From assembly GCA_947247005.1 (NCBI GenBank), contig OX365960.1, positions 19,282,533-19,346,532 of the forward strand: 64,000 nucleotides of DNA, read 5' to 3'. Both the position numbers and the translations under genes were made by a program. Below, one piece after another: positions 4,293 through 41,699 of this stretch. Below the pieces are notes generated by a model. It was not told where the DNA came from. It did not search any database and was given only the letters and a program-made list of their open reading frames with translations. The number at the start of each line of letters is the position of its first letter. Position 1 is the first letter of the stretch. The DNA is from Spisula solida (taxonomy: Eukaryota; Mollusca; Bivalvia; Venerida; Mactridae).

Positions 4293-4422
4293 TCGTGTGC
4301 AATGGAACGTCACACGATAGAAAAGAGTAAAGGTCGATCGTTTATATGAATAATATTCGATGTTACTTTAATAATCATTCTGCCGGTGATATCTGAAGTT
4401 AACACAACTAGAAGACATCACC
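4293..4422 (+). promoter_or_regulatory. Core promoter and 5'UTR of gene 1
   Basis: A TATA-like TTATATG lies at 4342. About 34 bp downstream is TCATTCTGCCGG (4375 onwards), matching the start of the block shared with gene 2. From there to the ATG the two genes are nearly alignable, ending in ACTAGAAGACATCACC directly before both start codons. Upstream is an inverted pair, TCGTGTG (4293-4299) and CACACGA (4311-4317), 11 bp apart. The transcription start is inferred from spacing and conservation only. Confidence 0.5.
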
Positions 4423-7400
4423 ATGTTGAAGTGGCTAATTTTCGGACTTGTTGTGGCGCTTGTGTCGCATTGGTCTTCGAAAGAAGGTAAGTGCAAGTAT
4501 CCTTAATGTTTATTTGTTTGTTTGCAATCAAAATAAACTTTTCATTGCATTTTGTGAACGAATGAGATGTTATACATTGTTGTACAAACTATAGAAAATA
4601 TCTGTTTCTAACAAAGTATGTTATGTTGATCTCCGTTTGTGTAATTGGTAATTTTTTTGTTATATGTTAGACGGGATTTGCGTTTTGTTTTTGATTCAAT
4701 TATTGAATTATACATTTATTAACCCAACACAGCATCATCAGGTGGGGGCATTGGCGGTTTATTTATTTATTATTATTTATTTTTTATTTTGCTTTTATTT
4801 ATCCTCGCCACCGGATAATCCATATGGGCGAGGCCCCCAGAAGAGGCTAGTCACTTTAGTGTTTGGGGGATAGTGCGTGATACAGAAGATGCTCCAGTTC
4901 TAGAAGCATCCCTGGTTCTTTTACGTTCTTTTACGTGCCGATGTAAAGCGTCATACACGGGACCTCGCTTTACGTTTCGTCCGAAAGTCTGTTAGTAAGT
5001 TTAGTTATGTTAGGTGGGGAACACTGAAAAGCATTGGCGGTTCATGACCATTGATAGCTCAGAATAATATGAAAATTCTGATGTAAATACTATCACACTA
5101 CTGTTCAGTTAGGATAATATGAGAGTAATGTTGTATTTTATGTGTACGCAAACGATAAGAACCACTGTATGAACAGGTAAAGAATAGTAGTTCAGCATTG
5201 AAAATATAAATAGGTGTCAAGATAAGCCTTTATAATTGAATGTACAGCGTAATAGTAGAACCGACCACTGCGTCACACTCTTTTCATCGTAACTGGACAG
5301 TGTAACTCTCTTAGGTAAAAACTATCGAACTATAAATGAGTGACCATGTAATATTACACATTGTAGTACAAGCAGACACCCCACTGTCTGAGGATGAACA
5401 AAGTCTACTGAGACAACTGAGAACCGAACTGGGCAGGACTTCCGATGTTCGTATGACAATTATATCATTTTTTTGTGTTACATACGCTTCCGTACATTTG
5501 AATCTCTATAAGTAAGTTAAAGATATACGATAGATTTAGATAGATAGATTTATTTCTACATACAATGTATAATTTACATGACAGATTTGATCAAAACATA
5601 CATTCAAACAATAAACAAGCATACATGCAATACTAATGTCATAGCAATCAACATTACACGTAAAGGATAACACAAAGAAGAACTACAACTTATTGAAATT
5701 GTGTCAGGTACTGTGATATTGAGAGATATTTTCATCTGTAATTTTATCACAATAGTTCTAATTACAGATGTTTTATATACAATGCGATCACAAAAAGTTT
5801 TTTTATAAAAATGTTGTAACTTGTTCAGATCTAGGCAAAAGTAGTTTCCTGATAAAATTTGCCTTAATGCCCCAAACAATTCACTTCCGTTCGCACTGTA
5901 TTGCTCTTTTGTAAACCTTTAGCTTGGACAACTCTAATACATTGTGCTGTCGAATAAACAAAAGGTTATTTAAACACCATCCTATGACATTTTATGACTA
6001 AACAAGATAAACCATATTTGCATAGATTTGTACACATTCTACGATGAAATCAGAATTTTACCGTAGGTTGCCGGACATGTATGAGCGTTACGATAATTAC
6101 CGAATATAAACCGTTCTTTGTCGATCTCTTATATTATCGGTGGGATTTATTAGAGTTGTTCTGCTTGAACATCTATTAGAAGTATGTACGCAATGGTCCC
6201 TATAAGGTCTTTATACTACATTATCCAATATATATTGCTACAGCAGCATATAGGTTTGCATGAAATGTCTTTTTGGGAGGATAAGATGATGGTTAGTTAC
6301 GTGTCGGGCATGTGTCTGGCATTGGTAGGCTAGGCACTGTCGCGGCTTCTGTATTGTGCCTTACAGTATTTGGTTATATTCAATTCAATAATTCAACTAA
6401 AAGTTGGCATGATATTCGTTTATTAGTAACCGCAGTAACTTAATACCAATATCTCAATAACACATTACAAGATAAGTTGATGTGTCATTGTTTTCAGTAT
6501 CCAGTGTGGACATACCACGTGTCATGTGACGTAATTTGTTGCTAACACGGCTTATTAAGGCAGAGACGGTTTCGAGTGTGACCTTTTGCACAAAACCCGG
6601 CTAAGGCGTCAAGGATGTCTCCAATCGGAACGGTCCGTACGGCATTTTTACGGGATAAAATACCTCGGATGTATCAAGCATATGAATCCAGCAGCTTTCT
6701 TTCTTAAATCCTACGCAGAAGAAAATGGGCCGAAGAAAATAGACCGTAACTTATCAGCAGCGGAACTATTAAAAGATGTTTTATTGATTAAACAATACAA
6801 TTTCGCTACACTCCTTGAGCATAACAAGCAGCTACGCAGCGCTTGCTTGATGGACGTGTATTCCATTGAAGCACTGTTTAAATCTGTCATGATGACGTCA
6901 TGGCGAAAGACGTTGAAAAATGGCGACGAGAGATGATTCGTAGAGATTGTCCGAGGTGTCCCGATTGGGATGTCTCGTTTAAATCGGTCAAAGAATAAAA
7001 TACGGTTATTTCTGCTAGCTGTGTTAGCCAAACATTACGTCACATACCACGTGGTATGTCAACATTATTATCTATCTTAGGTTGAAACCCGAGATTCCCA
7101 AATAGACTTTTGTATAGCGCAATGTGACGATACTGAAGACGACGACTGTTTGGATGATTGTTTGGCTGATGTAAGACAACATTCATGTTATTGTTCTGAT
7201 CCTCACACAAACTGTATCAAACGCCCATGTCTATTTCAACGATGCATGACGTTCTAGTCTATTTCGGCAACTTTTTTCTACGATGTCAATCGGCCACAAC
7301 TTAAAGGTCATGTCTATCCGATACTGAAGGCAACATTCTATGACTCACGATCCCTGGCACCATCGTTTGCTAGTATTTCAAATTATATACGTGTAGAACT

Positions 7401-8906
7401 CATTTTTGAAAATATATTACGAACAAATATGTGAAAATTTTGCCGATAGACGTAAAATCGGGTTCAAGTTGGCAGTGTCTTTTGTTGCTACAGTAACTGC
7501 TAAATGTTCGTTCTTGAAATGGGTTGACTGATTTATATTATTAAACAGTATTGCCACGTGAAGTTAATTAGCGTTGATATAGTTTCATTTATTAGATGCA
7601 GGAGAAAAGAGAGTGGGATGGTTCATCGTGTGAAGAAGATTGCCAATATGCGGACGACCCTGATGATTGTGAAACGGAATGTGAGAATGTAAGCACTTAA
7701 ACATATTAAATATATGCATTTATTGTTCTTTCAGCTTTTTGACAGCTGGAACTTGGGCAATTGATTTTCTCGTTCAGTTATGTGTTGGGCATTGTGCCGT
7801 GTATTTGTGGTATGTGATGTTTTTATGTTTTCTGTGTTTGACTGGTAAAGTTGAATTCTGCCTTTCTTGTCCGATTTTCTATTATCTTTTTTGGCTGGTC
7901 AAAAAGTGTTTTGCACCAATGAAGCAACGGTTGCGCTAATTCAAATCACAACTAGCAAAGAATCATCTCTAAACACAGTTATTTGATATTATATCGTCCT
8001 ACACGTGTATGTTTCAGACCAAGAGGATGCTTCAAGAAGTCAGAATGAAGGAGGAAATCAAGAGGTAAAAATAAATACAAAATGTAATATGACAGAATTT
8101 TGCCCGATACGTTAGAGATAGAATCTGACATCGGAGTGGTAACCTTTGGTTAGCCACTATATAAAGTATAAAGCTGAAAGTTCAGTGAAGGCTCAATACT
8201 TGTTTTTGATCTATTATGAGCTCCGTTCGTTAATAAAGTTTTTTTAATTAAATTAAACAATCAAATGCGTAATAACAACAGATGATGATAACCAACGAAG
8301 TCCTTGCCGAACTTTATTCAGACTCGGGTTAATTCTGTACATTGGTAAAAGGTTTTAAAAAAAATTGTAGCTGTACGGTCAAATAGTTTAGTTTCTAGAC
8401 GGTTTTCATTTGGTGTTTTATAAGTGTAGATTTAAGTTCGTTCCTGGAGCCTGCCAATTGTGAAACATCTGGTATTCATGTCTTCTCCGGTATATACACT
8501 AGTGATGCATTGAGGCCGAGGTGGTCCGACTGGATATTCTCCACGGTATACTCATTCATGCCTAAAAGCATAATTATTCACTAAATATTTCAGTTGATGT
8601 TAAAAATAAAGGTTTCCACATTCCAATTTTAACCAATTTTACATGACTGTATACTAGTAAATAAACATTAATAAAAATGCAAAAAAAAAAATGATGTTCA
8701 CCCACGAAGATGAATTCCAGTGTAGATTTAGTGCAGTTTGTGTCCTCTATTTCAGGGGGAAGTTTGGCAGCGATAGCAACGTATCGAAGAAAGCGTGGGG
8801 CCGGCGACGGGGCACCCGACGCGGTGCTGTCCGCAACTGGTGGCGCCGCATCGACTGGGAAAAATGGCACGATATTGCAGGCATCTTGATCAGGAGAAAG
8901 AGATAA
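4423..8906 (+). CDS. Gene 1: secreted precursor with acidic Cys-hairpin region and cationic Arg/Trp-rich C-terminus (candidate antimicrobial peptide)
   Basis: Six exons: 4423-4486, 5367-5446, 7081-7170, 7596-7688, 8018-8064 and 8756-8906. Phases agree throughout and give 174 residues. Residues 1-24 are a signal peptide (Lys-Trp then a hydrophobic core), probably cut after Val-Gln-Ala. Residues 25-48 are an acidic propiece. Residues 49-78 and 79-109, one exon each, are very acidic and carry C-x3-C-x7-C-x3-C (59/63/71/75) and C-x3-C-x8-C-x3-C (90/94/103/107), a spacing seen in helical-hairpin peptides. Dibasic KR sites lie at 82-83 and 124-125. The last exon has a Ser-Lys-Lys, then about 37 residues with RRR, RR, WWRR and a basic RRKR end, net charge about +10. 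The acidic part could mask the cationic part until processing. The donor after exon 2 is GTTCGT. Poly(A) may use AATAAA at 9899, rather far away. No family is recognised; antimicrobial function is inferred from composition. A venom-like or peptide-hormone role is possible but less supported. Confidence 0.8.
6506..7063. mobile_element. MITE with 43-bp terminal inverted repeats in intron 2 of gene 1
   Basis: The arms 6506-6548 and 7021-7063 are complementary over 43 bp with a few mismatches and contain the palindromic core CATACCACGTGGTATG. The internal ORF (6586-6936, 116 residues) has no transposase motif that I recognise. I found no clear target-site duplication, so no superfamily is assigned. 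Its right end is 17 bp before the first base of exon 3 at 7081. Confidence 0.8.
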
Positions 8907-10203
8907 GATAGAAAGAGATGTGAAATACGAAGATTACGAGAGTCGTCAAAATAAGTGAGAGTAGCTAAATAATGCTTTTCGTATATATTTTAGACATAAT
9001 CGTGAAACAGGGTGTCTCACTGATGTTCTGGCGAATACCAATCGTGGTTATGACATTTTGATTCTTCTTGCTAGGCAACCAAAGAAGACCATCAAAGGGC
9101 ATACGTTCGCGCAGTTAGTAGAACAAAAGTTTGCGTTGCTATGGAAACATAAAGTTATAACTGACATTTGCGAATCAATATAGACAATATACTTGACGAA
9201 AATATAAACCTAAACTACTTTTTATTTTAAATGCTAAGAAAATATAAAATTTATTACTCCAGTACTTTCAAGAGAAGCTTTTACATGGTATAACAAAGGA
9301 TGAAACACACGCTCACTACCAGTAACCAATAATGAAGCAGAAATATCATATATGTGCTACCAAAAATTCTAAGAAACCCGTTATTGTAAAAAACTCGCAG
9401 CCAGTGATGAAAACGATACATTTGATTTTCTTCACCCACAAAGGTCGTGAAATTCAATAACCAGAACCATTGGGTAAATACGATGGCCCATGAAGGTTCT
9501 ATAAATACTTTGTGCTGAAAAACTTAAGAACTAAATTTTGCAAACCTTCGAAATGTTAATGGAATATACCATATGTATCATTCTCATGAAAATATCCCTT
9601 CGCACAGGGCTTATACTGTAACGTAGTTGTTGAACGACAGCCCACGAGACTGCTTTATTACCAAGTCTATTCTGTAGACCTAGTTTTAAGTTCCTAGAAT
9701 TAAATCACATTGAGTAGACAATAGGTACTTTCCATGAAACTTATGTAGTGAGCTATATTACAGTGAATGAGTGTAGTGCTTATCGTAGACGACAAAACAT
9801 ATCTTTAGTCTTGAATTTAAAAGTTTAAATAGTGTGCAATGTGGAAAGGAGAACCCAGTCAAGGTTTTCTTTGAGTTTCATTGTAAATGATTTTGTCAAT
9901 AAAAAGATATATAGTAAGCTGTATTTCGTTCGAACACACCTCGTACAACGATTCCTTAATTTTTTTTCTTTTCAAACAGTTACTCCATAAGACATAATAT
10001 TATTCATAATCGTATTGAAAAGAAATGGTGAAATCAATGGTAAATTTTAGAACGGCATGGCAACGAAAAGAACACATATCGAGAAAATTAATAAAATTGG
10101 GGTAAAATTATTTCTAGGCAACAAAATAACACAGCATTAGTGACCACTCGACCACCACCATATTCGAGATATGCTTTCTACAAAATGTAAGTTGTAATAA
10201 ATC
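8907..10203. other. 3' flank of gene 1, no further exon seen
   Basis: AT-rich DNA following the stop codon. AATAAA at 9899-9904 is the first clear poly(A) signal I found, about 1 kb after the stop; a closer non-canonical signal may be used. The region contains no coding exon with conserved features. Confidence 0.4.
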
Positions 10204-10624
10204 CAGGGTAGCAATACCACCTGGCTTTCGACTACAGTTACAAGTAGAAATTTGTAAACATTGGAACACAAATATAGCCATAAGTATTCTATTTCTTCAT
10301 CGATTTCTATAAAATAAACGCCACGCTAAGGAGAAAGGTATTTGCTTTCCGAGAAATATAATATCTTTTTCAGCAGTTTTACCAATTTGTCCATTACCCT
10401 GTGAAACCTACACGATTCATGGATTCACAAGGTAATGGACAAAATGGCACAGCCGCTGAAAAAGATTTTATATTTGATGGAAAGCAAATAATTGTCCCCT
10501 TAGCGTGGCGTATATTTCATAGAAATCGATGAAGAAATAAAATACTTATGGCTATTTTATTTTCCAATGTTTACAAATTTCTTCTTGTAACTGTAGTCAA
10601 AAGTCACGTGGTATTGCTACACTG
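10204..10624. mobile_element. Long foldback element, about 420 bp
   Basis: Two arms of about 190 bp are imperfect reverse complements and meet near 10405-10425, so most of the element folds on itself. The ends read CAGGGTAGCAATACC on the left and GGTATTGCTACACTG on the right, implying termini CAGTGTAGCAATACCACGTG. AAATC occurs immediately outside both ends, a possible 5-bp target duplication. A second, more diverged copy is at 25493-25941. There are no coding features. Confidence 0.75.
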
Positions 10625-11128
10625 AAATCACGCTATATAAGGTTGAATTATACCGTTGAATTGACAACAGATTCAATCACCCTGCCGCTTGCACAAACGC
10701 ATACCCCTTAGTGATGTTCTTTGGTTGCTTGTCAACTTTATTTATCAAAATATATTCGATGATGGAATTCCTTAAAATATCCGCAAGGGATTATATCTGA
10801 CGACGATCAATAGAAAGTTCAACCGCAAAATGCATTTGAAGGCTTAAATCAACAACTCTGTTATTTTTGACTGACCCCTGAAATTATATGAAACACGCAG
10901 AATATTCGTATATGAAGAAATATTGGACAGCTAGATGACATAAATATTGCTACCTATACAGCTACTTGTATATTTTTAAATATTTGCTCTAGAATTTTAA
11001 CCTTGCATGATCTAAATTAGTTACACTATAAAAAATGAATAAGTCTGATACTCTGTAATAAAATTAATCTTAAACATTGTGTTGTTTTAAATTGATACTT
11101 TACTACTGGTAAATCATTTGTAACTCAT

Positions 11129-12986
11129 CAGGTACACACATCGTATGATGAGAAATAACAAACTGACCAGGCACACACATCGTCGTTAGATGAGAAATAA
11201 CAAACTGACCTGGTGTACGCATCGTCGTTAGATGAGAAATAACAAACTGACCAGGCACACACATCGTCGTTAGATGAGAAATAACAAACTGACCAGGCAC
11301 ACACATCGTCGTTAGATGAGAAATAACAAACTGACCAGGTGTACACATCGTCGTTAGATGAGAAATAACGAACTGACCAGGTGTACACATCGTTAGATGA
11401 GAAATAACAAACTGACCAGGTGTACACATCGTTAGATGAGAAATAACAAACTGACCAGGTGTACACATCGTTAGATAAGAAATAACAAACTGACCAGGCA
11501 CACACATCGTCGTTAGATGAGAAATAAAAAAACTGACCAGGCAAACACATCGTCGTTAGATAAGAAATAACAAACTGACCAGGTGTACACATCGTTAGAT
11601 GAGAAATAACAAACTGACCAGGTGTACACATCGTTAGATGAGAAATAACAAACTGACCAGGTGTACACATCGTTAGATGAGAAATAACAAACTGACCAGG
11701 TGTACACATCGTTAGATGAGAAATAACAAACTGACCATGTGTACACATCGTTAGATGAGAAATAACAAACTAACCAGGTGTACACATCGTTAGATGAGAA
11801 ATAAAAAAACTGACCAGGCAAACACATCGTCGTTAGATAAGAAATAACAAACTGACCAGGTGTACACATCGTTAGATGAGAAATAACAAACTGACCAGGT
11901 GTACACATCGTTAGATGAGAAATAACAAACTGACCAGGTGTACACATCGTTAGATGAGAAATAACAAACTGACCAGGTGTACACATCGTTAGATGAGAAA
12001 TAACAAACTGACCATGTGTACACATCGTTAGATGAGAAATAACAAACTAACCAGGTGTACACATCGTTAGATGAGAAATAACAAACTGACCAGGTGTACA
12101 CATCGTTAGATCAGAAATAACAAACTGACCAGGTGTACACATCGTTAGATCAGAAATAACAAACTGACCAGGTGTACACATCGTTAGATGAGAAATAACA
12201 AACTGACCATGTGTACGCATCGTTAGATGAGAAATAACAAACTGACCTGGTGTACACATCGTTAGATGAGCAATAACAAACTGACCATGTGTACGCATCG
12301 TTAGATGAAAAATAACAAACTGACCAGGTGTACACATCGTTAGATGAGAAATAACAAACTGACCAGGTGTACACATCGTTAGATGAGAAATAACAAACTG
12401 ACCATGTGTACACATCGTTAGATGAGAAATAATAATCTGACCAGGTGTACACATCGTTAGATGAGAAATAACAAACTGACCATGTGTACGCATCGTTAGA
12501 TGAGAAGTAACAAACTGACCAGGAACACACATCGTTAGATGAGAAATAACAAACTGACCAGGAACACACATCGTTAGATGAGAAATAACAAACTGACCAG
12601 GAACACACATCGTTAGATGAGAAATAACAAACTGACCAGGAACACACATCGTTAGATGAGAAATAACAAACTGACCAGGCACACACATCGTTAGATGAGA
12701 AATAACAAACTGACCAGGAACACACATCGTCGTTAGATGAGAAATAACAAACTGACCAGGAACACACATCGTTAGGTGAGAAATAACAAACTGACCAGGC
12801 ACACACATCGTTAGATTAGAAATATCAAACTGACCAGACACACACATCATTAGATGAGAAATAACAAACTAACCAGGCACACACACCGTTAGATTAGAAA
12901 TATCAAACTGACCAGACACACGCATCATCAGATGAGAAATAACAAACTGGTCGGTGTGTTATTTCTCATCTAACGATGGCTGGAAT
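11129..12986 (-). repeat. Minisatellite of about 45 units (39/42 bp) with higher-order structure
   Basis: The unit contains CATCGTTAGATGAG, AAATAACAAACTGACCAGG and a variable GTGTACA, GCACACA or GAACACA. Most units are 39 bp; some have an extra CGT, making 42 bp. Both lengths are multiples of three, so the minus strand stays open for up to 267 codons as a 13-residue repeat starting MCTPGQF. I treat this as repeat, not gene: several frames are open at once, and there is no signal peptide, splice context or non-repeat sequence. A block of about 277 bp (seven units) is duplicated (landmark GCAAACACATCGTCG at 11541 and 11818). The array ends in an inverted copy of its own unit near 12960. Confidence 0.95.
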
Positions 12987-14663
12987 GTTTCTTGTTGTTT
13001 TATTAAGATATTATAAATTCTGTATTATAAAAACAGGAATCAATTAGTGAAAACATGTGTAAACACTACTCAACAATTATAATCGGTAACCTTAACATTT
13101 CAAGCAGTGTATGCAAACAGAACTATTAGTACGATAATAAATCATTGAATTATTTGATTTCACGTATTAAAAACCAGGTTGTAGAAGTTCAATTGCATCT
13201 TATTAATGATTTAACGAATTAAATATAATATAAATCACTACCAACTTCCTTTGCACTGAAAACTGACCGATTATGAGTGTTGAGTAGTGTATATATGCAT
13301 ACCACACGTACATTTACCAGGGTACTATTTCATCGAAGCACTTGCGGAAAAGTTTTACTCAGGTTCAACTGTTTCAATTCTTGATAATAATTTTACAACT
13401 ACAAAATGTGTTCAATTGGGTATGCAATATAAATTATTGATTCAGTTAATGAGCTCCCACAAACCATATAAGTCCCCATTTTTTTCATTTGTGATAAAAA
13501 TTGAAATTTTGAATATGTTTAAGATTTCCGGATTTTGTTTTTTAAAAAAACAAGGTAAACTGGTGTACATATCATTAAGAGAACCATTTACAAGTACACC
13601 CTACTAAAGTTTGTTAATTATGCCTATCTCTTATGTTAACAATGTACGATTAATATCAAACTATAGTTTCAAGCGCTTTACAAAACTTCAAGACCTTAAA
13701 ATGAGAGAAGTTGCAATAGTTTTACATACATTATGCGTTTATAGAGTGCATGTTGTTGGCATGGCACATATATAATTCCACGGCAGGTGCACACTATCGA
13801 TAAGTCATCCACATATAAAAATACAGTTTATTTGCCGTGTAATCATGTTTATTATGACACGTCAAAAATTTGTCTACTGTACATGTGCAATACATTGGAG
13901 ACAGACAAATGAACACGTTGTACAACAAAAAAACCATCTTTCTACATATTGTAAATAGGCTCTGCCAAATATGTTATCCACTATAGATAAAATCGTTACT
14001 TACTGACTTACTACTTGTTCCAATACACTCTTTGTACACATGCTCAGGACAAGGAACAATATCAACTAGACGCATTTATGAAAACTAAAACGTATGTCCC
14101 CAAGTGGCCATAACTCTCGCAAGAATCACCCCAACCTAACAATTCATGAAATGCACAACTAGGCTTGTAATGGTGTGAAGTTTCATTAAGATCCGACCGT
14201 TGGTTGAGAAAAACAAGGCTGTAAGCTTTGTGACATCCATCCATATACATGTACAAGAATCCAGGCGTCAAGCACAACTTCAAAATGTCTTCCCCACTAT
14301 ACTGCGGTTTCCGACCCATATCAGTAGATTCCACATGCAGCGCAATGAACGCAGACTCTCCAACGTGTACACATGTACATACGATTGGCTGCTGATATAA
14401 AGATTCAAAAATGTAAATAATAATCCCATTAGAGGGTTGTATTTGATGACAAGAATATTTTTAAAATATAATAACAAATCGGACACGAAATTGATAAAAA
14501 AATAACTCTACATAAAATTGTATACCAAATTGGCAAATTCTATCTCTGCATGAAGGTGGCCCCGCTCAAAATGACAAATCATGAGATTTGATGACGTTAA
14601 TTTGATTACTTGAGTTTGAAAATTGCTATTGATGACGTTTTCGGAACTTCAAATCAAATCTAG
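12987..14663. other. Intergenic, no gene seen
   Basis: AT-rich DNA between the minisatellite and a short open frame. A fragment near 14170-14220 (AGTTTCATTAAGATCCGACCG) resembles the AGTTT..AAGA.GATCGGA module of the repeat at 1-430, so part of this stretch is probably an old dispersed repeat. Confidence 0.4.
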
Positions 14664-14915
14664 CACCATTCTTCGGTAAAAATTAAATTTGAAGCAAAAA
14701 CATCAGATCACAAGCACAAACTACGAAAGAGACAACTACAAAAAGATCAAGAAGACATGAAAGTGAAGGACAATTTGTACGAAAATCCTGCCGCCTCAGT
14801 CAGTCAAACAGCCAGAGCAAGCAGACAAGAACAAACCGAAAGGACGATCACACATCACAAAAACAAACCACTACCCAACAATACTTATTGTACATACATA
14901 TACACGCCCTTTTGA
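14664..14915 (+). pseudogene. Possible terminal-exon or pseudogene fragment with an NLYENP cytoplasmic-tail motif
   Basis: An open frame of 83 codons lies between TAG at 14661 and TGA at 14913; the only in-frame ATG is at 14757. The peptide is rich in Lys, Arg, Gln and Ser, has runs such as KLRKRQLQKDQED and then NLYENPAAS. This looks like the cytoplasmic tail of a type I membrane protein with a Tyr-based motif, as in scavenger/MEGF-like receptors. No transmembrane exon was found upstream. It may be a decayed or retroposed piece, or chance. Confidence 0.25.
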
Positions 14916-17900
14916 AAGTAACGAAACAGCCTTTTGCCGGACTCCAAACATGCAAAAAGGCACATTAAAATTACTAATCCATTTTTGTTTGAATTATTTT
15001 AACAATAAAATGGACAAAACATACACAAGTGAAGGTTGACTCTATGGCCTCCGTGTTAAAACGTACATTGGCGAATGTCCCTGTGGGCTTAATAGCTTAA
15101 TGGTGCACCTAACCTGAGTAACCTCACACTTACCCCACATATAACATTATGGAACAGTGCAGTACAAGAGGTGTTCAACTTATAATTATTTGAACAAAAC
15201 TGAACATCGGAGTTTGCCATACTAACACAATAAAATCGATTTATTTCTATTGAGCCGTGTAAAAAATGTGTTAAGTAGTAAATACACTCATTTTGTTTCA
15301 TATTTGCATGTTTTTCCAACCAAAATCAACCATCTTATAGAGGGCAATGTGTTTTGGTTTTTTAAGACAAATTGCACCTATATAAGCACCAATAAGTGTT
15401 GTTATATTATGAATTACCCATGTCAGTGAAGACAATCAGTAATACGTATTTGTCATATGAAGGGTGATATACGTTCATCTGCTTGTTTTGATGAAATGGC
15501 ACCAAAAGTTAAAAATCACCAAAAATGGTCGAAACCTGCAATGGTTCTGTGATATCTAGGACACACTCAATATCCAAAAGTTTGATGGCAGCGAAGTGTC
15601 ACGATCAACTTTCGTTCGCATTATTCAGAAAGATGTTCATTAGCTCAATGTCAAGCAAAACAAAGAGCGCAGACAAAGGTTTTGAAGGTTGTATATGCGA
15701 CTACGGAACAGTGATTGGAAAAATGTATCGTTCCTGGGGAGTTAATGTTTTATCTAAAAGGAAATAATTACATAAACAGAGTCTGCTATTTTAGAAAGGG
15801 TATATAGACATAAGTTGGAGTTAGTTAAGCTTGGTGTATTTGCGGCCGCCTTCATGACATGGTCTTGTGTTTGATATTTTGGAAAAGTGTAACTCAAAGT
15901 GATTGAACAGGGGATAAAGGTGAACGCATATTTTATTTATGCAAAAGTTATTTTTTCGACAAAATGTGAAACGTCCTTTCCTGATAGCATGCCAAAGACA
16001 GGGTGTTTCCCCAATACTGAATTTCGTGTCACCCTACTAAATATGTAAATAAGTAGGCCTACCTTATGAATTACACTGGGAAGTATATTATACCCAAACA
16101 GTGGATATCCAAGTCTCCTAATGAAGTATCAATATAATTGAAACCTGGAGAATATTGAAACATCAATTAGAAAAGCGAATTGTAAGCATCACCACTTAAA
16201 GGTTGTTGGCCTTAAAAATTACAAAATCAACACACTCGATACAATAGTTGATTCTATTCTAAGGATATAACATATATTGTACATTCTACAATGGTTGTTT
16301 ATATCTCTTGATACATTACTATACACTATTGAAAAGACACAATTCGATTTCGATGTGACATTTATGAAAATACTGGATGTACAATTCCTTCCAAATTGAG
16401 TTGAACACCTCTCGTATAAATGAAAGCATCCAACCATGCAAATTCCTATAACCGAAAGGCTACAGTAACAGGTTATAAAGAATATAAAACATGAAATATT
16501 ATGTTAACATAACCCATTGAATAGCCCAGAAAGTACCCAATGACATATCCGAGGTCAGAGCAACAAGAGAGAAAAATATTTAAGGGCATGACAAGGCAAC
16601 TTAGGAGGCAAACACCAACGCCTGTCATACTCAAAGGCTTTCGGTTAGGCATAGTCATGGTGTCTACTTATTGCCCCGGCAGTGCACATTGAAATAGGAA
16701 ACATAAATGGACCAACCACTTAGTATGCGGTTCATTACAAATTAAATTAAATTTCTCTAATCAGAAACTTTTAACAGTCTTAAGAATACATGTATCATGA
16801 AATTAATATGACACAACTTTTTTAGAAATTTGTAAAGCACTTCGCTATAAAATACAGGTTGAGACAGACTCTGAAGCTACGTAAATTTGAGCGGTGGAAA
16901 CACTTTCAATATGGAAGTATTGTTATCATATACCCCAAAAAAGACTCTTAATTCCTGGGTTGCATTGTTAGTAATACGATCATGTAAGATATTGCATAAA
17001 ATTTTAAAATGTTTTACGTTGGTAGAATCTATATGGAAATGTCATATGAGATCAAGCATTTTCTCAAACACTTGTATCAAATTATGCGCTATGTGATGTA
17101 TGGTTATTGTTATAGGACAATTTTCGAGCATAATGTGCGTATTCGTCAAATTAAATAATCAAAGCAACGTTTCGTAAAAACAGGATAAACATTTGGGGAA
17201 ATATATTATTATATTATGATAACTTTAATTTATTTAATAACTCGTTACGTACAAATATAGTTTTAAACGTCAACACTTATATTCACCATGGTAATCAACA
17301 AGATTGATACACAATACCACAGTCATGTAGCCCTGGGCTGCACTATTTCATTTTGGATACAAAAACCTTTTAAGACAAACGTATCTAAAAACATAAACAC
17401 GTTTATTATTTTTCATACGAAACAAATACTACTTATTACTATATCGAGATTCCTTTTGGATAACCCAATTATCCGGCTACAAGGATGTCACCTGAACACG
17501 ATTCGATTAATAATAATATTGTTTTCGACAAAATCTACCAACCGCTTCATTACGACAGCGCTCGTTATCTCGTTAACTGATGTACCATTCTAATTCATGT
17601 ACTGAGTTATTTTTAGTTAAGTTGGTTGTAATAGAAGAATCTAGGCAAGTAATACTACATAAAACAAAACATTCAAATGTATGACAAATCATTCATACAT
17701 ATTCACAAACAATGAATAATGAATTGAGAACGAAATGTCAATGCATGTGTATATTTATCTTGTGATTGCGCTGTAGATTCTCGTTTTCAATGTGACCCTT
17801 TACTATGCTTGTGATCTGTGCTATTTCTTGTTTGTATGTTGCCTTTTGTTCCTTTCGTGTTCGCCTGACCGAATAATATGTATCTTTCTAACGGGTTTGT

Positions 17901-18334
17901 CAGCTGCTAATTTGCAAAACATAGTACCGAATTCCACTTTTGGTCAGAATAATATTGGACTCCGAGCACAGTTGTCCAACATACTCGATATGTTAAGCAG
18001 TTTGTACATTTAATAGATTTGACTGAGCAAGCTGGTTTACAAAATAATAGCTTGGGTTGTAAGTCCCTCAGCCGTAGCCACATGTAAGCAAATTAAATGT
18101 TATCTACAGTCGTTATGTCAACTGGTCAAAAGTAAAAAAGACTGTCCAAAATCTGACAGGGAAATTAGCACTCATTGACTCCAGAAACAACAGAGTACGA
18201 AAGGCAAAATAGACATTCATAAAAGAACAATCACAGACCGTAGATACATGTTACAATGACAAAATTCTAGCGTGAATAACAAACTATGAAAAGAAACAGC
18301 AGCAAAGACCTTTCTTCGTGTGCATGGATGAAAA
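14916..18334. other. Intergenic, no supported gene; contains duplication flank
   Basis: Several short ORFs (for example 15525-15767, 80 codons, and 17288-17593, 101 codons) lack recognisable domains, coding-type composition or splice partners. The part at 17235-17390 is related to 2390-2540 upstream of gene 1 and marks the left side of the duplicated block. Confidence 0.4.
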
Positions 18335-18680
18335 ACACAGTAAATGAAGTTGGTTTCAAATAATTTGTGACATAATATTATTTTAATTGAATGAATTTTT
18401 TTGGATTCTTGAAAATTGGGAATAAACCACAACTATTCTTTATCTGATTCGCGTTTGATTTGTACCTATGTTTTGTCCAAAACTTCCTGAACCACCAACG
18501 AGTCGTTTACAACACAGTAAATGATGCTTGTTGCATATAAATTATGATATAATATTATTTTAATTGTATGACTTTTTTTTTTGGCTTCTTGAAAATGGGA
18601 ATAAACCAAAACTATTCTATATCTGACTCGCGTGTGATTTGTACCCACGTTTTGTTCAAAACTTCCTGAACCATTCATGT
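18335..18680 (+). repeat. Tandem duplication of a ~177-bp unit upstream of gene 2
   Basis: ACACAGTAAATGA occurs at 18335 and 18512. Both units continue with ATAATATTATTTTAATTG, a T-run, CTTGAAAA..GGGAATAAACCA and CAAAACTTCCTGAACCA. Two diverged copies are present. The pair ends about 240 bp upstream of the inferred start of gene 2, an architecture parallel to but unrelated in sequence to the array upstream of gene 1. Confidence 0.8.
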
Positions 18681-18850
18681 GCAACAGATCGTTACTAACA
18701 AAAAACAAAACAGATGTGATGATTTAGCCGGGTATGAATTACAAAGATGTTGCCTATACTCACGACAAACTATTTTTACCAATTTCCCTACACTTAGTTC
18801 AACCAATGAAATCCCGTGCTTATATGTGTACTGCAAAGCTACGAGACAAG

Positions 18851-18964
18851 ATTGACGTAATTGTCGTGTGAATAGGACTAGATTGATTATAAATGAGACA
18901 CTAAGTTACCCTAAGTCATTCTGCCGGGGATCTCTGAAGTTGTTTACAACTAGAAGACATCACC
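18851..18964 (+). promoter_or_regulatory. Core promoter and 5'UTR of gene 2
   Basis: TATAAA at 18888-18893 is followed 29 bp later by TCATTCTGCCGG (18916 onwards), the same start block as in gene 1. The 5'UTR ends with ACTAGAAGACATCACC before the ATG, as in gene 1. Upstream lie TGACGTAA (18853-18860), resembling an ATF/CREB or C/EBP-type site, and TCGTGTG (18864-18870), also found upstream of gene 1. The TATA-to-start spacing supports a functional promoter. Confidence 0.55.
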
Positions 18965-21900
18965 ATGTTCAAGTGGCTAATTTTGGGACTTGCTGTAGTG
19001 CTTGTATCGCATTGGTCTTCCAAAGAAGGTAAGGGCAACTATTTATTTTATTTATTTTATTGTAATTAGTCATTAATTGGCTGATTTTTGGGGAGCAGTA
19101 AAATATTTTCTAGTATAATATTTGTGAAAGTATGTAAAAAAGTCGTATTTTAATGAATATAGATTAAATGTTATTCGTGTTTGGTGGTTTCATTCTATTT
19201 TTGAAAGTATGTAAATATTTTCAATTGATATACAAACTAACGTTTTATCCGGAATTAATCACGGACGTAAAGTAATGTAATGAAATCAGGACGAATTGAG
19301 GTTTAATCATATTGCACAGTTAGTGTATGCTTTTAAAAGATAGACGCTTAGTTTATGCTAACACTAAAAACTGAACAACAGATATTTGAGGACATATTTT
19401 GTAAAATCAGTATGAGCTAAAACGTACACTAAATATTATTCAGCTTATTTATCTAATCCGTTACGAACAATGTTAATGAATAATTTTCTAAATCACCTCT
19501 TTCAATACTGGATATGTTCAATAAAATATTTGGTCCATTTGGTACAGTTACCCTTCATTTTTTTATCAATTTAACTATATAAACTGAAAACACTAATGCT
19601 AAAACAAATTCACTTGCATGCTTTAGATATCTCGTGAGCTAAGGTTGGTAATTACAAGCAATTCATTGTTCGTATTTGTACCTTATCATTCACATGCAAA
19701 ATGTCGTCATCAAGATGAAATAAGGACATTTGATTGTAGAAAAAATCGAAAATGGTGATGTGGTTACATTTAACCTATGATTTATTCACATTCAAAATTT
19801 TTAATGCAACTCTGGAAATTTTTTGTTTTGTTTTCTTCTAATTTTGCTATCGACCATATTTTGTAATGTGTTGATGAGATGTAAATAAACTATTTATCTT
19901 TATCTGTATCGTAAGAGCAAATTGGCTTACTTTAGATTCAGTATCAAGTCATGGTTTTATTGATTTCACGCTTTCATTAATTATTTTTGAGTTAAGGTAT
20001 CTTTGCTTTGTTATTAGTCACATACAATTTCAATCAAACAATGAAATAGGATAAGTTTTTTTTCAACATAATATTTATTCTTTATTTCAGTCTCATTAAC
20101 ATATACGATTACAATAACATTATACACCACACAAACATTATTGTGTTACCATTCTAATACAGAATTATACTAAGAAGAGACGAATAAATATTCACAACGA
20201 TAGTACAAATTAAAAATGCACATGTATACATGAAATTGACCTACATGCTAATCATAATCATGATAATAAAACTTACGCAATATTGCGAACGAACAAAATA
20301 ATTTGTTTTTAAATCATTACAGATTCGTACACTTTTCGAAATTGGTAATAAATAAACTAATACTAGTACTTCGCAATTTAAGGCGAACTATTAGTTTAGA
20401 TGCTGTATACCCTCTTGGATATGTTTAACTGTGTATTCACAAAGCAACTCAGCATATTTTTGTTCATTTGAGGACCCTTCAGGTTACCGCGTGTAATACA
20501 TACAGAACATGTTTTCTTAAAGCCTAAACTGTTCTTGTTATATATCAGCGGTTCAAAAAGTATATATAGTCATTAACAGTTTACTTAGTCTTGAAACGTT
20601 ATGTAAAGAGCTGCAATGGGCACTATGAATGGAGTAGTCTTCACTTTTCGGGAAATATGTGAAACACACTTTTTGAGTAGAAGAAATATGTAAGCTTTAA
20701 ACTTATATGCTTCGTGAATACCAGCTATGGATGGTAACATGGAATAAATGGTATCGCCAACGAAGTGACTTTGTAATATTAACTATTATAGTGCATGCGG
20801 ACAACCCATTGTCTGATGAAGAGTTGAGAGAACTACAAAGCGAGCTTGAACAACTAGAACAAATCGAGGAACTCGACGAAACTGAGAATTCTGAAGTTTG
20901 TAAAAATAGTTTTTATATTTCTCTTTGTGTTGTAAATGTATATGTCGCATACAATAAATCTCCGATATCTCTATAATAAGTTCAGCATTACGACCCTTAA
21001 ACATATGGGCTGTCTGATCAGGAACTTTACTTGGCAATATCTTTTTCTAATGCATTGTATTGAATATCTCAGCCAGGACAATCTCAAGAACGAACAGACT
21101 ATCAACTACGATATCACTAGTCGCAAATGATAAAAACAACTTTCTATCTGTTTTACGTTATTTATTTTAAGTTTTTAACTGCATGATTAAGGCATATCAT
21201 ATATTTTTCTTAGATAAGTATAAAATGGTGCCACGGTGGCCGAGTGGATAACGCTCTTGACTACTGATCAATGGGTAAGAATCAAGACAGGGACACATAG
21301 TCATTTCTTTAACGCTTTTCCAAGTGTTTCTCACCCAACTAGAGATGAACTGGTTGGAAACCCGAAAGAGTCTTGCGCGTATCGGTGCTACGGGGAACGT
21401 TAATGAAAGGAGTCTATTCAGAACGAACTAGGGTATAACACCCCCGGATTCCTTGTATCACACCTCTTTCTCTTCGTTGGTTTTAAGTCTGCCCTTGACA
21501 GACATACCTGCCAAAGGAGGCGGTAGGTTGTACATAGTGGACCATATTGAAAATTAATATTGCTGCCAAATATGTAATCCACGATAACTAAAGTCGTTAT
21601 TATTAGTATTATACAAACACGTAGATAGATAGAATCTACAAACATGTGTTGAACAGTGTTATGATTTCAATTTTAGCTGGACAAGAGAGATGAAGACGAC
21701 TGTGGCTATTGCCAGTTAATGGATGATCCGGATGCCTGTGAAGCAGAATGTGAAGATGTAAGCAATTTTATCACTTGGCTGACGTCTTTATACCAGACCG
21801 TAAAGTTCAATTCTTTTAATAACGTTTCGGCACGAAAATCATGAAAATTATTGAAATGTTATTTGATATTGTTTTTACGTTGCATCATGTTGACGTTGAA

Positions 21901-23560
21901 TATGTAGTTTGTCAATAATTTTCATGATTTGAAAAAAGCGTATATATGCCGAAACGTTATTAAAAGAATTGAACTTTACTATGTTTTAATAATAGATATC
22001 CCTTATGAATGTTATCAGTGACGGTCTTTTATAAAAGCAGTAATTTTGATGTTTTGGTAGGAAAAATCTTTCTTTAGATAAATAGAATATCACATTTTTA
22101 TCAAACTCCCAGATATAATTGACATAATGCTTGGCAAAGCCTCGTACTTTTATTATTTTATTCAACTTGTTTATATTCAAAATGAAAGGACCGTCATACA
22201 CTATCCTCTATATAATGTAATTTATTCAATGTTCGTATCGTTATAAGTTTCTTGATGTCTATGTGGAGTGTATGTCAAATATACGTGGGATTTACTAGAA
22301 TTACTCTTTAAATGGTCCATTCCGAAAATAGATAAATAATTGAAATTCATGCAGAAGTTACCATAGCAACCGAAATCAATGTCCAATTTAAATATGGATC
22401 TACTAGATCAATGTTCACATGTTAGCGATACAATGTCTTCTTGGCCCGCTTAATGTTCTTCTTTGTGCTTTGCTTTTTCGTTCGAGTGTTTTTTCCCTGT
22501 CCGATTTGTTATTATCGTTTGGTAATAATTAAAACTTGAGTATGTCTTTTTAATATTAGGCATGAAAGTACAGGGTGTTTCATAATATATGTCCCCATTA
22601 TAACCGAATGGCATGAAAAAATGCTTGATCTCATCTGACATTTTCATATACCAATGGAAAGCTAACATTTCAAAATTTTGTTCAATACACTTGCAAAACC
22701 TTTAAAGGAGAGTCACAGTTGAAGAACTAAAGCAGAGATACCTGGGGACAAGTAGACACAAGTAATGACTTTAATCGTAATACAGAAAGAAAATGGCAGG
22801 CTGACCAATATGATAAGTTTAATATGTAACAATATGGGGAAAACGAAAGACCTAAAATTAGGTCTTTGGGAAAACGTAACATGTGCGTTTCTTTATGTAC
22901 TCCGTGTAGTCGACGTATACGGTATAACATCTGTCTGTTTCAGAATCTGTACAGAAGAATGATTGAACAATTCGCTCAACTACAGGAAGCAAACCAGGGG
23001 TAAATATGAGTTATACTTAGAATATATTAAGTAAATGTTTAAAATGATTAAAAAGGGCGAAGTCATTAAAAATTTATTTAACATGTTCTAACTGTCTGAG
23101 AATACAACATCCTGCATTTTGATTGGCCGATAAATCTCATAGATTATATCCTAAAGAAATCTAGAACTGCTTTTTGTCGTATTGGTTTATTGTTTTTATA
23201 GTGAATAAGATAAGTATAAATACTGTCCAGTTGAGATACTGTGAGAGTCACGTTTCATTTTATGTGTACTCAAAATATTACAACCATTGTCTGAACAGGT
23301 AAAGTATTTTAGATTAGCATTGAAATTATAATTTGCAATACTCCCATTGTTTAGAGATACAAAAATGTACAATTTAGACACTTAGACACGGCAATATGCG
23401 TTTTGTATATTTCAGGGCAATGCTGAACAGCGAGAACGACCAGTCGAAGAAAGGGTTGTGGCGGCGGCGGCGCCGCAGCGGTCGTAGATGGTGGCGATGG
23501 GATAGGATAAAGAGAACAGCAGGGGACCTTTTACCTATCATATTGAACAGAAGAAAATAG
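18965..23560 (+). CDS. Gene 2: paralog of gene 1, secreted precursor with Cys motif and Arg/Trp-rich cationic C-terminus (candidate antimicrobial peptide)
   Basis: Five exons: 18965-19028, 20792-20895, 21677-21757, 22944-22999 and 23416-23560. All junctions are in phase, giving 149 residues. Residues 1-24 are a signal peptide almost identical to that of gene 1, ending Val-His-Ala. Residues 25-56 are a Glu/Leu-rich acidic propiece of helical character. Residues 57-83 start with a KR dibasic site (59-60) and contain C-x2-C-x8-C-x3-C (65/68/77/81) in an acidic setting. Residues 84-102 are a short helical linker. The last exon has Ser-Lys-Lys, then about 35 residues with a five-Arg run, GRRWWRW, a hydrophobic LLPIIL and a basic end, net charge about +12. 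It has one Cys exon where gene 1 has two. The exon 2 donor is GTTTGT, non-consensus as in gene 1. AATAAA lies 159 bp after the stop. Antimicrobial or membrane-active function is inferred from composition and precursor layout; no known family is recognised. Confidence 0.82.
21229..21300 (+). repeat. tRNA-derived SINE head in intron 2 of gene 2
   Basis: GCCACGGTGGCCGAGTGGAT carries a good A-box (TGGCCGAGTGG), as in Leu/Ser-type tRNAs. The B-box region near 21280 is degenerate, so a working tRNA gene is unlikely. The following 150 bp may be the SINE body. Confidence 0.5.
21800..21979. mobile_element. Foldback MITE in intron 3 of gene 2
   Basis: The left end GTAAAGTTCAATTCTTTTAA and right end TTAAAAGAATTGAACTTTAC are reverse complements. 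Complementarity continues through AACGTTTCGGCA/TGCCGAAACGTT and ATCATGAAAATTATTGA. It is non-coding. Confidence 0.8.
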
Positions 23561-35399: not shown

Positions 35400-38300
35400 A
35401 TGAGTGAAGAGGACTCACCACAGCCATCCGTGTGTGAAAATTTTGAGCCTCAAGCATGGCGGAAAACAGTGTGTAGGAATTGTTTTCAGCCGCCTGAAGT
35501 TCATGTTGCCGGAAGTGGTGAAAATGGCGACGGCGGTACTTCCGGTATGGCTAAAAACACACCGGCTTTTGGTCAGGGAGATAAATCGGCTGCTTCGTCT
35601 CTTAAAAATAAATTTGAACAATTAGAAAAAGACAAATACAAGCCGAAAGAAACATCCAATACATTACCGAGAGCGAAGAAGACCGGTGGGTTATCATTAT
35701 TTACTGACAAATATGACCAGTTAGACAGAGAAGCTACAAAGTCGGAAAGTCCGACAAAAGGCATTCCACCCCCTACCCCACCCAAAACGTATAAAAAGGA
35801 TGGCTCAATGAAAGGAAAATTTGGATCAATGGAAAATGTGTCGGTTGATTTAAATGATGGTAGTGAGAATAAACTTAGTTTTAAGCTTAAATTTGGATCA
35901 ATGGAAAACATATCACTTGGTCAAGAGAAAAAGAAAGATACTGTTTTAAAGCATAAAGAAAACATATCATCAAGCAATAAAATAGACCCTAGACAAGCAA
36001 TGTTAAGTAAACTTGACAGTTTTCAAAATGAACTTAAAAGTGGTGCTATGTCAAAGGCTGGTCAAACGGTCATACATAAGCAAAAGGATGGTAATGTAGA
36101 CATTATTACATTGCCCAAACGGGGCTCAGATAGTAACACTGCAGACAGCAAAACACAATCGAAAGATACAGCAGTGAAATTAAATGAAAAGACTGATTTA
36201 AAATCTAAATTTGAAAAACCGGAACTTAAATCCACTAGTAGCAAAGACACCGGATTGTCTGGCAGTAAGGATGCAGGATTATCCAAATTCGGACAAAAAT
36301 CGAAATTTGATCTCAAATCCCCTGAATCTGAAAAACCAAATGAACTAAAAAGTGGTAAGGATTTACTTTTGTCCAACAGATTTAAATCTACAAAGACAGA
36401 TGACAGCAAAGACAAGCAAACAGACAAGCCGGCAGACAAAGATACAAAATCAGGCTGGAAAAAGCCCGAACTAAAGCCACCCAGTAAAGAAAGGGAGGAA
36501 ATTAAACCTGCGTCGCTGAAGGATAGACTCAGTAAACCAACTGACCGACAGAAAACTGATGAAACCAAAAAACCCGGTTTCAATTTAAAAGATCAACTAA
36601 AATCATCATCTGTTGACAAAGATCCATTGTCAAAATTAAAAGATAAGTTAAAGTCACCCACTGCAGAGACTGACAACAAGCAGGCCCCTTCATGGAAAGA
36701 CAGGTTGAAATCATCATCTACAGATGCTGAAAAGAAATCGGACACTCAATCAAAATTCCAAAAAAGCGAAACCAAAACAGACACGAAATCAGTTGATGAA
36801 ATCTCAAAATTAAAATCGCCCATAAACAATGAGAAAAAACTGGTACATGAAGAAGGAAGGAAATCACCTATTAAAACCGACAAAAAGCAAGCACCGGACG
36901 AAGAAAGGAAATCGCCAATTAAAATTGACAAAAAACAAGTACCCGACGAAGAAAGAAAATCGCCAATTAAAACTGACAAAAAGCAAGTGCCGGACGAAGA
37001 AAGAAAATCGCCAATTAAAAGTGATAAAAATCGACCTTCCGACGAAGAAAGGAAATCGCCAATTAAAAATGAAAAAAAGCAAGTACCGGACGAAGAAAGA
37101 AAGTCGCCGATTAAAACTGGCAAAAAGCAAGAACCGGACGAAGGAAGGAAGTCGCCAATTAAAAATGACAAAAAGCAAGTATTAGACGAAGAAAGGAAAT
37201 CACCAATCAAAACCGGAAAAAATTCAGCACTGGACGAAGAAAGGAAATCGCCAATTAAAATTGACAAAAAACAAGAACCGGATGAAGAAAGAAAATCGCC
37301 AATTAAAACTGGCAAAAAGCAAGAACCGAACGAAGAAAGGAAATCGCCAATTAAAACTGACAAAAAGCAAGTTCCGGACGAAGAAAGGAAATCGCCAATC
37401 AAAACCGACAAAAATTCAGCACCGGACGAAGAAAGGAAATCGCCAATTAAAATTGGCAAAAAGCAAGAACCGGACGAAGAAAGGAAATCGCCAATTAAAA
37501 ATGACAAAAAGCAAGTACCGGACGAAGAAAGAAAATCGCCAATCAAAACCGACAAAAAGTCAACACCGGACGAAGAAAGGAAATCGCCAATTAAAACTGG
37601 CAAAAAGCAAGAACCGGACGAAGAAAGGAAATCGCCAATTAAAAATGACAAAAAGCAAGTAGCGGGCGAGGAAAGGAAATCGCCAATTAAAACTGGCAAA
37701 AAGCAAGAACCGGACGAAGAAAGGAAATCGCCAATTAAAAATGACAAAAAGCAAGTAGCGGGCGAAGAAAGGAAATCGCCAATTAAAACTGGCAAAAAGC
37801 AAGAACCGGACGAAGAAAGGAAATCGCCAATTAAAAATGACAAAAAGCATGCATCAGATGAAGAAACGAAATCGCCAGTCAGCAATGAGAAAAAGGAGAC
37901 ACCAAGCGACGAAAAGAAATCGTTAACAAACAATGACAAAAAAACTGGAAGTTCAGAAATGAAATCCGAAGTGTCATTAAAGAAAGACAAAGAATCAACG
38001 GACAAAAATTCTATCGGCTCAAAGTTTGATGATAAAAACAAACTAAGGTTTGGGGAAAAGTCGAAGTTCGAAAATGACTCAAAATCACAAGACAAGAACA
38101 TATCGAATGATCTCAAATCAAAATTCAGCAAGCCTGGTTTAAAAAGTGTCAAAGATGAGGACACAAGTAGTAAACCTAAGCCGTTCGATTTAAGAAATAG
38201 CCTTAAGAAGGCAAGTGATGCACCGAGTGTAGACAAAGATCCAGCTAAAGTTGACACTAAGAAAAAGTTTGAACTACCATCATTAAAATCAAATAAAAAC

Positions 38301-39854: not shown

Positions 39855-41699
39855 GTAAGTATACAGTCTAATCTGTTTTTATTTGTACGAGTAATAAATG
39901 AACTCATCAATAAGCAATTCAATTACATTAGTGTAGTGATCTGGCGATTAACAAAAAACTAAATAACGGTGTGTACGATTGTCAATCAGCTCTCATATAC
40001 AGTATAACCTGTATTAAGCCGCCTGTCAATGGGGGAGCATTATACTTGTATGCTTAAAACAGATGGTCACTTAATATAATTGTTTTGTGTGTTAACTAAG
40101 TACTAGTAATTGGAATTTGAAACTATTGGTTATGTAAAGTCGGAGGCGGCTTAGTACCGATGTCCTCTGAGACAGTATGTTTTGTATATTGAACGTCTAA
40201 GTTCTACGCGACCAGTCTTCATTGCATAGTTTTATGAGCACATTCAAACAAGTGTCTGTAAACACTGCCTAAGTGAACCAAAACATTGGTCATTGTTGTT
40301 AACAGGTGGTCATTGAAAATGGTATAATAGGAGATACAATCAATGGTCTTTGCATACATCTTTTGTAATAATGGTCTTTATTCACAGGTGGCTTTTAACA
40401 CCGAGTATTTGTTTGCATGTTTTGTAATCATCTGCCTCAACTGTAAAAATCACTAAATAATATGATCAACAACGAAATCAGCTAAAATTTACCCAACCCT
40501 ACTACAAATAATAATGTTATAGAAAAGCAAGCATTACGAACGTGATATAAGTGCTTACGTACATGCTACTGTTTTGTTTAGATATTACTGTTTACATTTG
40601 TTTAGATATTAAGGTGGATCGTGTCCTTCCTATCAAAACTGCTACGATAATCACACTCGTGTCGCTTTTAACACCGCTTAACTTACTACGAGTATTTCAG
40701 AATAAAAATCGCAGAAATGATAAAAAGCTCATATCTCATCCTTCAATCATACCAAATATCATTTAAACTCCTATGTAAATCCACTCATTCAACAAAAAGG
40801 GTACTTTCCACCTTAATACTTCAAACGCAATAAACTACGTCAGTGACTTTGATACAGTAGCTATCACTCCAGCGATAATACCATAAGTTACAAAAAACAC
40901 CTATTCCAGTTGCATATGTGCATCGTTAGGTTTAATTAGCAATTTGATGGTTAATTCTAATCGTGAAGTTTTTTACTCTATCCCCTGGGGAGTCATCTAC
41001 ATTCATTATTGTTGCCATCAAGCAGTTCTAAAGTTCATTAACTTACTGTATGTTTACCTACATCTGTGACACGCTCTCCCAGGCGACTGTTTATAGTTTT
41101 TTACTCCGATCTTACGAATAATCATTAGTGACATTTCGACGTCATGAAATCGTGAATTAGTGAATTCGTGTCGATTCATATTGTTGACAATCGTGAAGTC
41201 ATGGTGTTGATATCGTGATTTCTTGAAATCGTTAATTCATGTTTAAATCATGAAATCGTGCATTTGTGACCATGAACTCGACATGGCGAAATTGAAAGCA
41301 TGAATTAGGACGTTGAAATGTCTTCTTTTCCTTTTTTCGTTCACTGTCTACTCTACCACTCCGGTGAGCAGTCCTCTTGAGGCCATCCTTCTTGCCAGGA
41401 AGGATCTTATCTAGTGTGGTTGAAACTGGCATGACATTTTCTTATTAGTTCATACAGTTGGCACTGCTGGAGTTGGTGCTCTGTTGTCTGCTCTGTCACC
41501 ACACGCCGTTGAAATGTCACTAGCAGTCGTTCGTACGATCTGCTAGTCAATACACATTATTGCACTAAGTAATTCGAGTTAAAAATACATTGCTTGATCT
41601 TCCCGTGGGTATTCTATTTAGTGTATTTAATAGTTCGAATTTGCAAGTCTATGAACTAGAAGTAAATGAATTGACTACAATATAGTAAACTCCTTAAAT

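Follow-up and report, generated by a model that had tools for sequence, protein, structure and literature searches.

The window analysed here, a stretch of 64,000 nucleotides from the surf clam Spisula solida (C18:19282533-19346532), carries two genes, A and B, for putative secreted precursors with a cationic C-terminal tail (Table 1), which a preliminary description had reconstructed with frames open across nine exon junctions. Our re-splicing agrees with that reconstruction: leaving exon 3a of gene A aside, A encodes 142 and B 149 residues, no internal stop is present in either, all introns are GT-AG, and the intron phases are the same (1, 0, 0, 2). Exon 3a, a phase 0-0 exon with the borders ttag/GTT...GAT/gtaaga, brings A to 172 residues and, when counted, gives it five introns to the four of gene B, so that the nine junctions of the preliminary description may already have included it. 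The order that had been reported for both proteins, in which a signal peptide is followed by an acidic piece, a Cys motif, a dibasic SKK site and an Arg/Trp tail, is likewise confirmed. An acidic Cys module combined with a GTAAG donor occurs three times in the window as opposed to not once in 200 first-order shuffles, and SKK with a cationic Trp-containing tail occurs twice, as opposed to nine times summed over 200 shuffles.

Table 1. Features of genes A and B, with positions counted within the window
Feature	Position	Strand	Remarks
Gene A, TATA-like box TATATG	4343..4348	+	Aligned with TATAAA/TATATA in other copies
Conserved TCATTCTGCCGG element 5' of gene A	4375..4386	+	10-copy alignment; putative transcription start region
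Gene A exon 1, signal peptide	4423..4486	+	Re-splicing; relatives in genome
Gene A exon 2, signal peptide end and acidic propiece (VQADTPLSEDE...)	5367..5446	+	
Gene A exon 3a, first acidic four-Cys module (CIAQCDDTEDDDCLDDC)	7081..7170	+	c1 and g252 likewise with two Cys exons
Gene A exon 3b, second acidic four-Cys module (CEEDCQYADDPDDCETEC)	7602..7688	+	KR site before module
Gene A exon 4, TKRMLQEVRMKEEIK linker	8018..8064	+	K/R-R-M motif in 7/7 genes
Gene A exon 5	8756..8906	+	SKK at pro-part end 8784-8792, cationic tail 8793-8903, stop 8904-8906
Gene B, TATAAA box	18888..18893	+	10-copy alignment
Conserved TCATTCTGCCGG element 5' of gene B	18916..18927	+	10-copy alignment
Gene B exon 1, signal peptide	18965..19028	+	
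Gene B exon 2, signal peptide end and acidic propiece	20792..20895	+	Donor gtttgt weak
Gene B exon 3, acidic four-Cys module (CGYCQLMDDPDACEAEC)	21677..21757	+	DKR before module
Gene B exon 4, NLYRRMIEQFAQLQEANQ linker	22944..22999	+	
Gene B exon 5	23416..23560	+	SKK at pro-part end 23444-23452, cationic tail 23453-23557, stop 23558-23560

Inverted repeats at 6505-6552 and 7017-7064 (48 bp, 85%, ~0.5 kb apart), just 5' of gene A exon 3a, resemble the ends of a small DNA transposon. A dispersed repeat is found in intron 1 of A (5099-5209), in intron 4 of B (23221-23331) and further downstream (52949-53024), as 111 bp at 80% and a 76-bp piece at 78%, and a 39-bp tandem repeat of ~46 copies fills 11122-12949 between the two genes.

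To describe A and B as a pair proved too narrow, as the genome (932 Mb, 36 contigs) holds at least seven complete related genes: A, B, g232, g239, g252 and g268 on C18, and c1 on C1. Seven is a lower bound from six-frame searches with B and A as queries, which returned 15 and 18 matches, respectively, at E <= 10, single A and B exons and at least one likely chance match included; the candidate L022 (C1:8201400, E 3.35) was dropped as a chance match. The six C18 genes stand head to tail on the + strand in an array of ~74 kb that spans C18:19232111-19306092, with g232, g239, g252 and g268 upstream of A and B; c1 falls within C1:5355700-5361986. Each of the seven genes has five or six coding exons, with the mature peptide in the last, and shares the intron phases 1,0,(0),0,2; GT-AG borders are present in 31/31 introns. 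Two Cys exons are found in A, c1 and g252, and a single one in B, g232, g239 and g268. An Arg/Trp-rich open reading frame in a c1 intron (C1:5357855-5357766, - strand; RRRRRWRRRRRQR; RRRRRWRRRR) resembles a simple repeat and lacks an SKK site, and was for these reasons not taken as an exon. A DNA search with the promoter and exon 1 of B found nine places, g232 not among them, and three orphan copies of exon 1 with its promoter were located at C18:19066934 (+), C13:40125165 (-) and C20:11415000 (-). Identity to the orphan C18 copy amounts to 96% over 3.1 kb for the C13 copy and 94% over 2.5 kb for the C20 copy. No other family exons were found in the ~5.6 kb downstream of the C18 copy or in the ~1.5 kb downstream of the C13 and C20 copies; the orphans are likely to be recent duplicates, made either by a mobile element or through segmental duplication.

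The seven precursors (147 to 190 residues) are built to one plan. The signal peptide, MLKWLI...VSHWSSKEVHA or a near variant, has a mean identity of 84% among the seven, and is followed by an acidic propiece beginning D-S/T/N-PL..., by the acidic Cys module or modules, and by a short exon with the K/R-R-M motif. The pro-part in the last exon comprises 13 residues, the first codon of which is shared with exon 4, and ends in SKK in all seven genes. We predicted the mature tails by cutting after SKK and trimming C-terminal basic residues; none of the seven contains Cys, all have an isoelectric point of 12, and their sequences are highly variable. Calculated average masses of the trimmed peptides as free acids include 4144.7 Da (A), 4116.8 Da (B), 4117.8 Da (g268) and 4948.8 Da (g239), with the amides of g268 and g239 ~1 Da lighter. 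An acidic part that would neutralize a cationic peptide, as the preliminary description proposed, is supported by the charges in 7/7 genes, where pro-parts of -14 to -25 precede trimmed tails of +6 to +14, and the whole precursor minus its signal peptide ranges from nearly neutral (-1) to acidic (-11). The tail charges of +10 and +12 given earlier for A and B hold for the untrimmed tails, and fall to +6 (A) and +9 (B) once the terminal basic residues are removed. The WWRR/RRWW type of cationic tail described for A and B is one among several tail chemistries in the family. Arg/Trp-rich tails are found in A, B and c1; Pro/Arg-repeat tails in g232, g239 and g252 (22%, 30% and 26% Pro, as opposed to 0-3% in A, B, g268 and c1); and the g268 tail is Arg-rich and amphipathic, with a moment reached by only 8/2000 shuffles. 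An amidation signal, either C-terminal Gly or Gly-Lys-Lys, terminates 5/7 tails. Folded without an alignment, the last exon of A gave one long helix with a predicted local distance difference test score (pLDDT) of 70, on which we do not rely.

The acidic modules, ten in all, share four invariant Cys. The second pair is spaced CX3C in 10/10 and the first CX3C in 7/10 and CX2C in 3/10, and KR precedes the module in 7/10. AlphaFold2 modelling of the module alignment gave a helix at residues 4-15, a loop and a second helix at 21-29 (mean pLDDT 81, predicted template modelling score 0.39), and we accordingly describe the module as a predicted helical hairpin. A Foldseek search with this hairpin returned no significant match (sole PDB match, E 5.2), and a profile search of PDB sequences gave, at the Cys module, only weak, non-significant resemblance to scorpion helical-hairpin toxins, namely kappa-KTx 2.9 (E 0.54) and OmTx3 (E 9.8). 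Plant alpha-hairpinins are characterized by a CX3C-Xn-CX3C motif (PMC11591084). The clam modules in part resemble these and the kappa-KTx scorpion hairpins in having that motif in 7/10 cases and a helix-loop-helix, which is predicted on the clam side, whereas they differ in being strongly acidic, in the CX2C first spacing of 3/10 and in their placement in the pro-part.

Substitution patterns distinguish the parts of the precursor. Pooled over 21 gene pairs, the ratio of nonsynonymous to synonymous differences (pN/pS) is 0.21 for the signal peptide, 0.49 for the acidic exon, 0.44 for the Cys exon, 0.62 for exon 4, 0.79 for the last pro-part and 0.59 for the mature tail, the last being confined to alignable codons with 39% gaps. 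The mean alignable fraction over the same pairs is 32% for exons as opposed to 2.9% for introns, and because of these ratios and the far better alignment of exons, purifying selection on the prepro part is supported at the level of sequence comparison. By exon coverage the closest relative of A is c1 (77%), and their tails match at 11/35 aligned residues; the Pro-rich tails are more alike (24/33, 29/36 and 26/43). Upstream, TATAAA or TATATA stands at -67 to -80 in nine of ten copies, all ten of which align at TCATTCTG(C/T)CGG or a near variant around -50. No NF-kB-type site turned up in the ten copies when both strands of up to 600 bp 5' of each were scanned simply for GGGRNNYYCC and GGGRNNNYCC. 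A poly(A) signal lies 3' of 5/7 genes.

The preliminary description could not match the proteins to a named mollusc antimicrobial peptide family, and searches of proteins, Pfam, NCBIfam and PDB sequences likewise gave no significant match to a known family. In a set of 5.8 billion proteins, queries with B, A and a six-sequence alignment returned 53, 8 and 1873 candidates, respectively, none at E <= 1; since the bivalve share of this set is uncertain, the empty search is weak evidence of absence. The best profile matches were below significance in Pfam (E 0.099), NCBIfam (E 0.013) and PDB sequences (E 0.084), and the curated Pfam cut-offs, shown for B alone, were not reached. We found no description of the clam family in the literature searched, outside which most subscription papers lay, and the gene family is apparently undescribed.

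Taken together, these features make it highly probable that A and B are members of a multigene family encoding secreted prepropeptides, each the source of a linear, cationic antimicrobial peptide without Cys, and we propose the following route from gene to peptide. (i) A TATA-type promoter would drive the gene, and the signal peptide would direct the product into the secretory path; both features are present in the sequence. (ii) The acidic propiece and one or two acidic hairpin modules, whose charge balances that of the tail, may keep the cationic part neutral and harmless. (iii) At the sites observed, a prohormone convertase would cut after SKK and a carboxypeptidase would trim C-terminal Lys/Arg, and in 5/7 members the C-terminal Gly would be converted to an amide. 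(iv) By analogy with the myticalins of mussels, the freed Arg/Trp and helical peptides would disrupt microbial membranes, and the Pro/Arg-repeat peptides could act by membrane permeabilization and/or on intracellular targets. Conserved prepro exons joined to a diversifying tail would thus allow one scaffold to deliver several peptide chemistries.

Several observations weigh against this antimicrobial interpretation. As ideal helices, 6/7 tails (A and B among them) show no more amphipathicity than their composition would give, and the moment of the tail is reached by 1871 (A), 339 (B) and 1266 (c1) of 2000 shuffles. The amidation Gly is missing in A and B, and KK is recognized less well by convertases than KR. 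Pooled pN/pS exceeds 1 in no region, and among six single pairs only the mature part of A vs c1 reaches 1.0, on a doubtful alignment; positive selection on the tails is therefore unsupported by the pooled counts. At the level of gene structure, the exon 2 donors are weak in A (gttcgt) and B (gtttgt), the former recurring in g268 and c1 while g232 and g252 have gtaagt; A lacks a perfect TATA box (TATATG), and neither AATAAA nor ATTAAA was found <=600 bp past the A stop or in the 100 bp examined for c1.

Other readings of the same precursors have to be set against the antimicrobial one. It is improbable, in our estimation, that the acidic four-Cys hairpins are themselves the active products, for example as metal-binding or hairpinin-like peptides, with the cationic tail serving as a counter-ion or localization tail. 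Such a role would fit the symmetry of the Cys exons, which form phase 0-0 modules, their duplication in A, c1 and g252, and the combination of four invariant Cys, a frequent KR (7/10) and a predicted helical hairpin; the modules are, however, strongly acidic, unlike membrane-active peptides, and it is at the tail junction that SKK is invariant (7/7), while the tails carry the compositions of antimicrobial peptides and, in 5/7, amidation signals. Signal peptides, dibasic sites and amidation signals are hallmarks of neuropeptides too, and their presence here would agree with precursors of neuropeptides or peptide hormones from which convertases release amidated signalling peptides. We regard this as very unlikely, given that bivalve neuropeptides are usually short and conserved, whereas the clam tails run to 32-50 residues with 24-34% Arg, up to 30% Pro and charges of +6 to +14, and lack conservation from one paralogue to the next (~39% gaps). 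Acidic and basic segments, both present in the clam precursors, are also found in biomineralization and reproductive proteins, yet small precursors with a common processing site, amidation signals and a tandem array with divergent tails leave little room for other secreted polycations such as shell-matrix, mucus-binding or sperm/egg proteins. That the genes are decaying or non-expressed duplicates, as three orphan exon-1 copies might suggest, is the least probable reading of all against seven open models with intact splice sites, prepro pN/pS of 0.21-0.79 and a conserved core promoter.

Among known precursors, the closest parallel to the antimicrobial family proposed here is that of the myticalins and modiocalins of Mytilus and Modiolus. 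Like the clam genes, these form multigene families with a conserved signal peptide, an anionic pro-part, a dibasic site, an amidation signal in many members and a variable, linear, Cys-free cationic mature peptide with Pro/Arg-repeat and Arg-rich subtypes (PMC5577615, PMC12294457). The segments are arranged differently: myticalins run from signal peptide to mature peptide, KR and anionic tail, whereas all seven clam precursors show the reversed order of signal peptide, acidic part, four-Cys hairpin(s), SKK and mature peptide. A myticalin gene consists of three exons, one of which encodes signal and mature peptide together, in contrast to the five or six coding exons of the clam genes, where the two are in separate exons. 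With its segments in another order and its exons laid out differently, the clam family does not belong to the myticalins; from its sequences it appears to work like them and to resemble an inverted myticalin precursor. Myticalins are reported to be absent from non-mytiloid bivalves. Of seven assayed in vitro, four were strongly active, two moderately active and one inactive (PMC5577615); they are said to work by membrane permeabilization (PMC12294457), and myticalin A5 hardly inhibits translation. The clam tails are chemically myticalin-like, as judged by the A5 sequence and by the C subfamily, which has Arg stretches at the N-terminal end and acidic residues at the C-terminal end (PMC12294457).

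Other comparisons are more distant. Proline-rich antimicrobial peptides are described as cationic with 14-49% Pro along with Arg, a composition found in 3/7 clam tails (g232, g239 and g252) and not in A, B, g268 or c1. Cg-Prp of Crassostrea gigas is likewise secreted as a small precursor (61 residues, 37 mature) whose C-terminal region is rich in Pro, and differs in having very low activity alone. To our knowledge, and compared without an alignment, it lacks the Cys hairpin module and the SKK site of the clam precursors and does not switch tail chemistry. In frog preprodermaseptins and mammalian cathelicidins the prepro exons are conserved and the antimicrobial C-terminal part varies greatly, a pattern shared by the clam family with its putative antimicrobial tails; the clam pro-domain is different and has no significant Pfam similarity. 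Sea urchin centrocins share a prosequence ahead of the cationic chain, and their heavy and light chains are disulphide-linked (PMC4805251), in contrast to the Cys-free clam tails.

Elsewhere in the window, a GACG tetranucleotide array of ~84 copies occupies 1174-1511, and direct repeats at 45844-46143 and 48768-49067, 100% identical over at least 300 bp and 2.9 kb apart, are possibly the terminal repeats of a young element. A long open frame at 35400-39857 (1486 residues) contains ~22 copies of a 48-bp repeat and gave a weak TSC22-type match (E 0.0018) under the curated cut-off.

Beyond the identity of the products, we lean slightly towards the proposal that an antimicrobial system of one scaffold and many chemistries arose in a heterodont clam separately from that of mussels. 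In this system a conserved prepro part with acidic hairpin modules, duplicated in three genes and possibly co-released as antidotes or chaperones, would be coupled to an exchangeable tail of Pro/Arg-repeat (with myticalin-like PRI repeats), Arg/Trp or amphipathic-helical type. Few linear antimicrobial peptides are known from bivalves: a 2025 paper names CgPrps, molluscidins, myticalins and modiocalins, and states that an amphipathic helical bivalve antimicrobial peptide is undescribed (PMC12294457). If our proposal is true, the clam family would be an inverted-order convergent twin of the myticalins that includes such an amphipathic-helical peptide, and a case of convergence reached via a reversed precursor. 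With three tail chemistries on a single acidic hairpin scaffold, the family provides peptides ready for synthesis, and a means of testing how a separate folded acidic module may neutralize a self-toxic peptide. Since strong conservation among the paralogues is confined to the signal part of 24 residues, these findings suggest that the peptide repertoire of non-mussel bivalves has been under-read.

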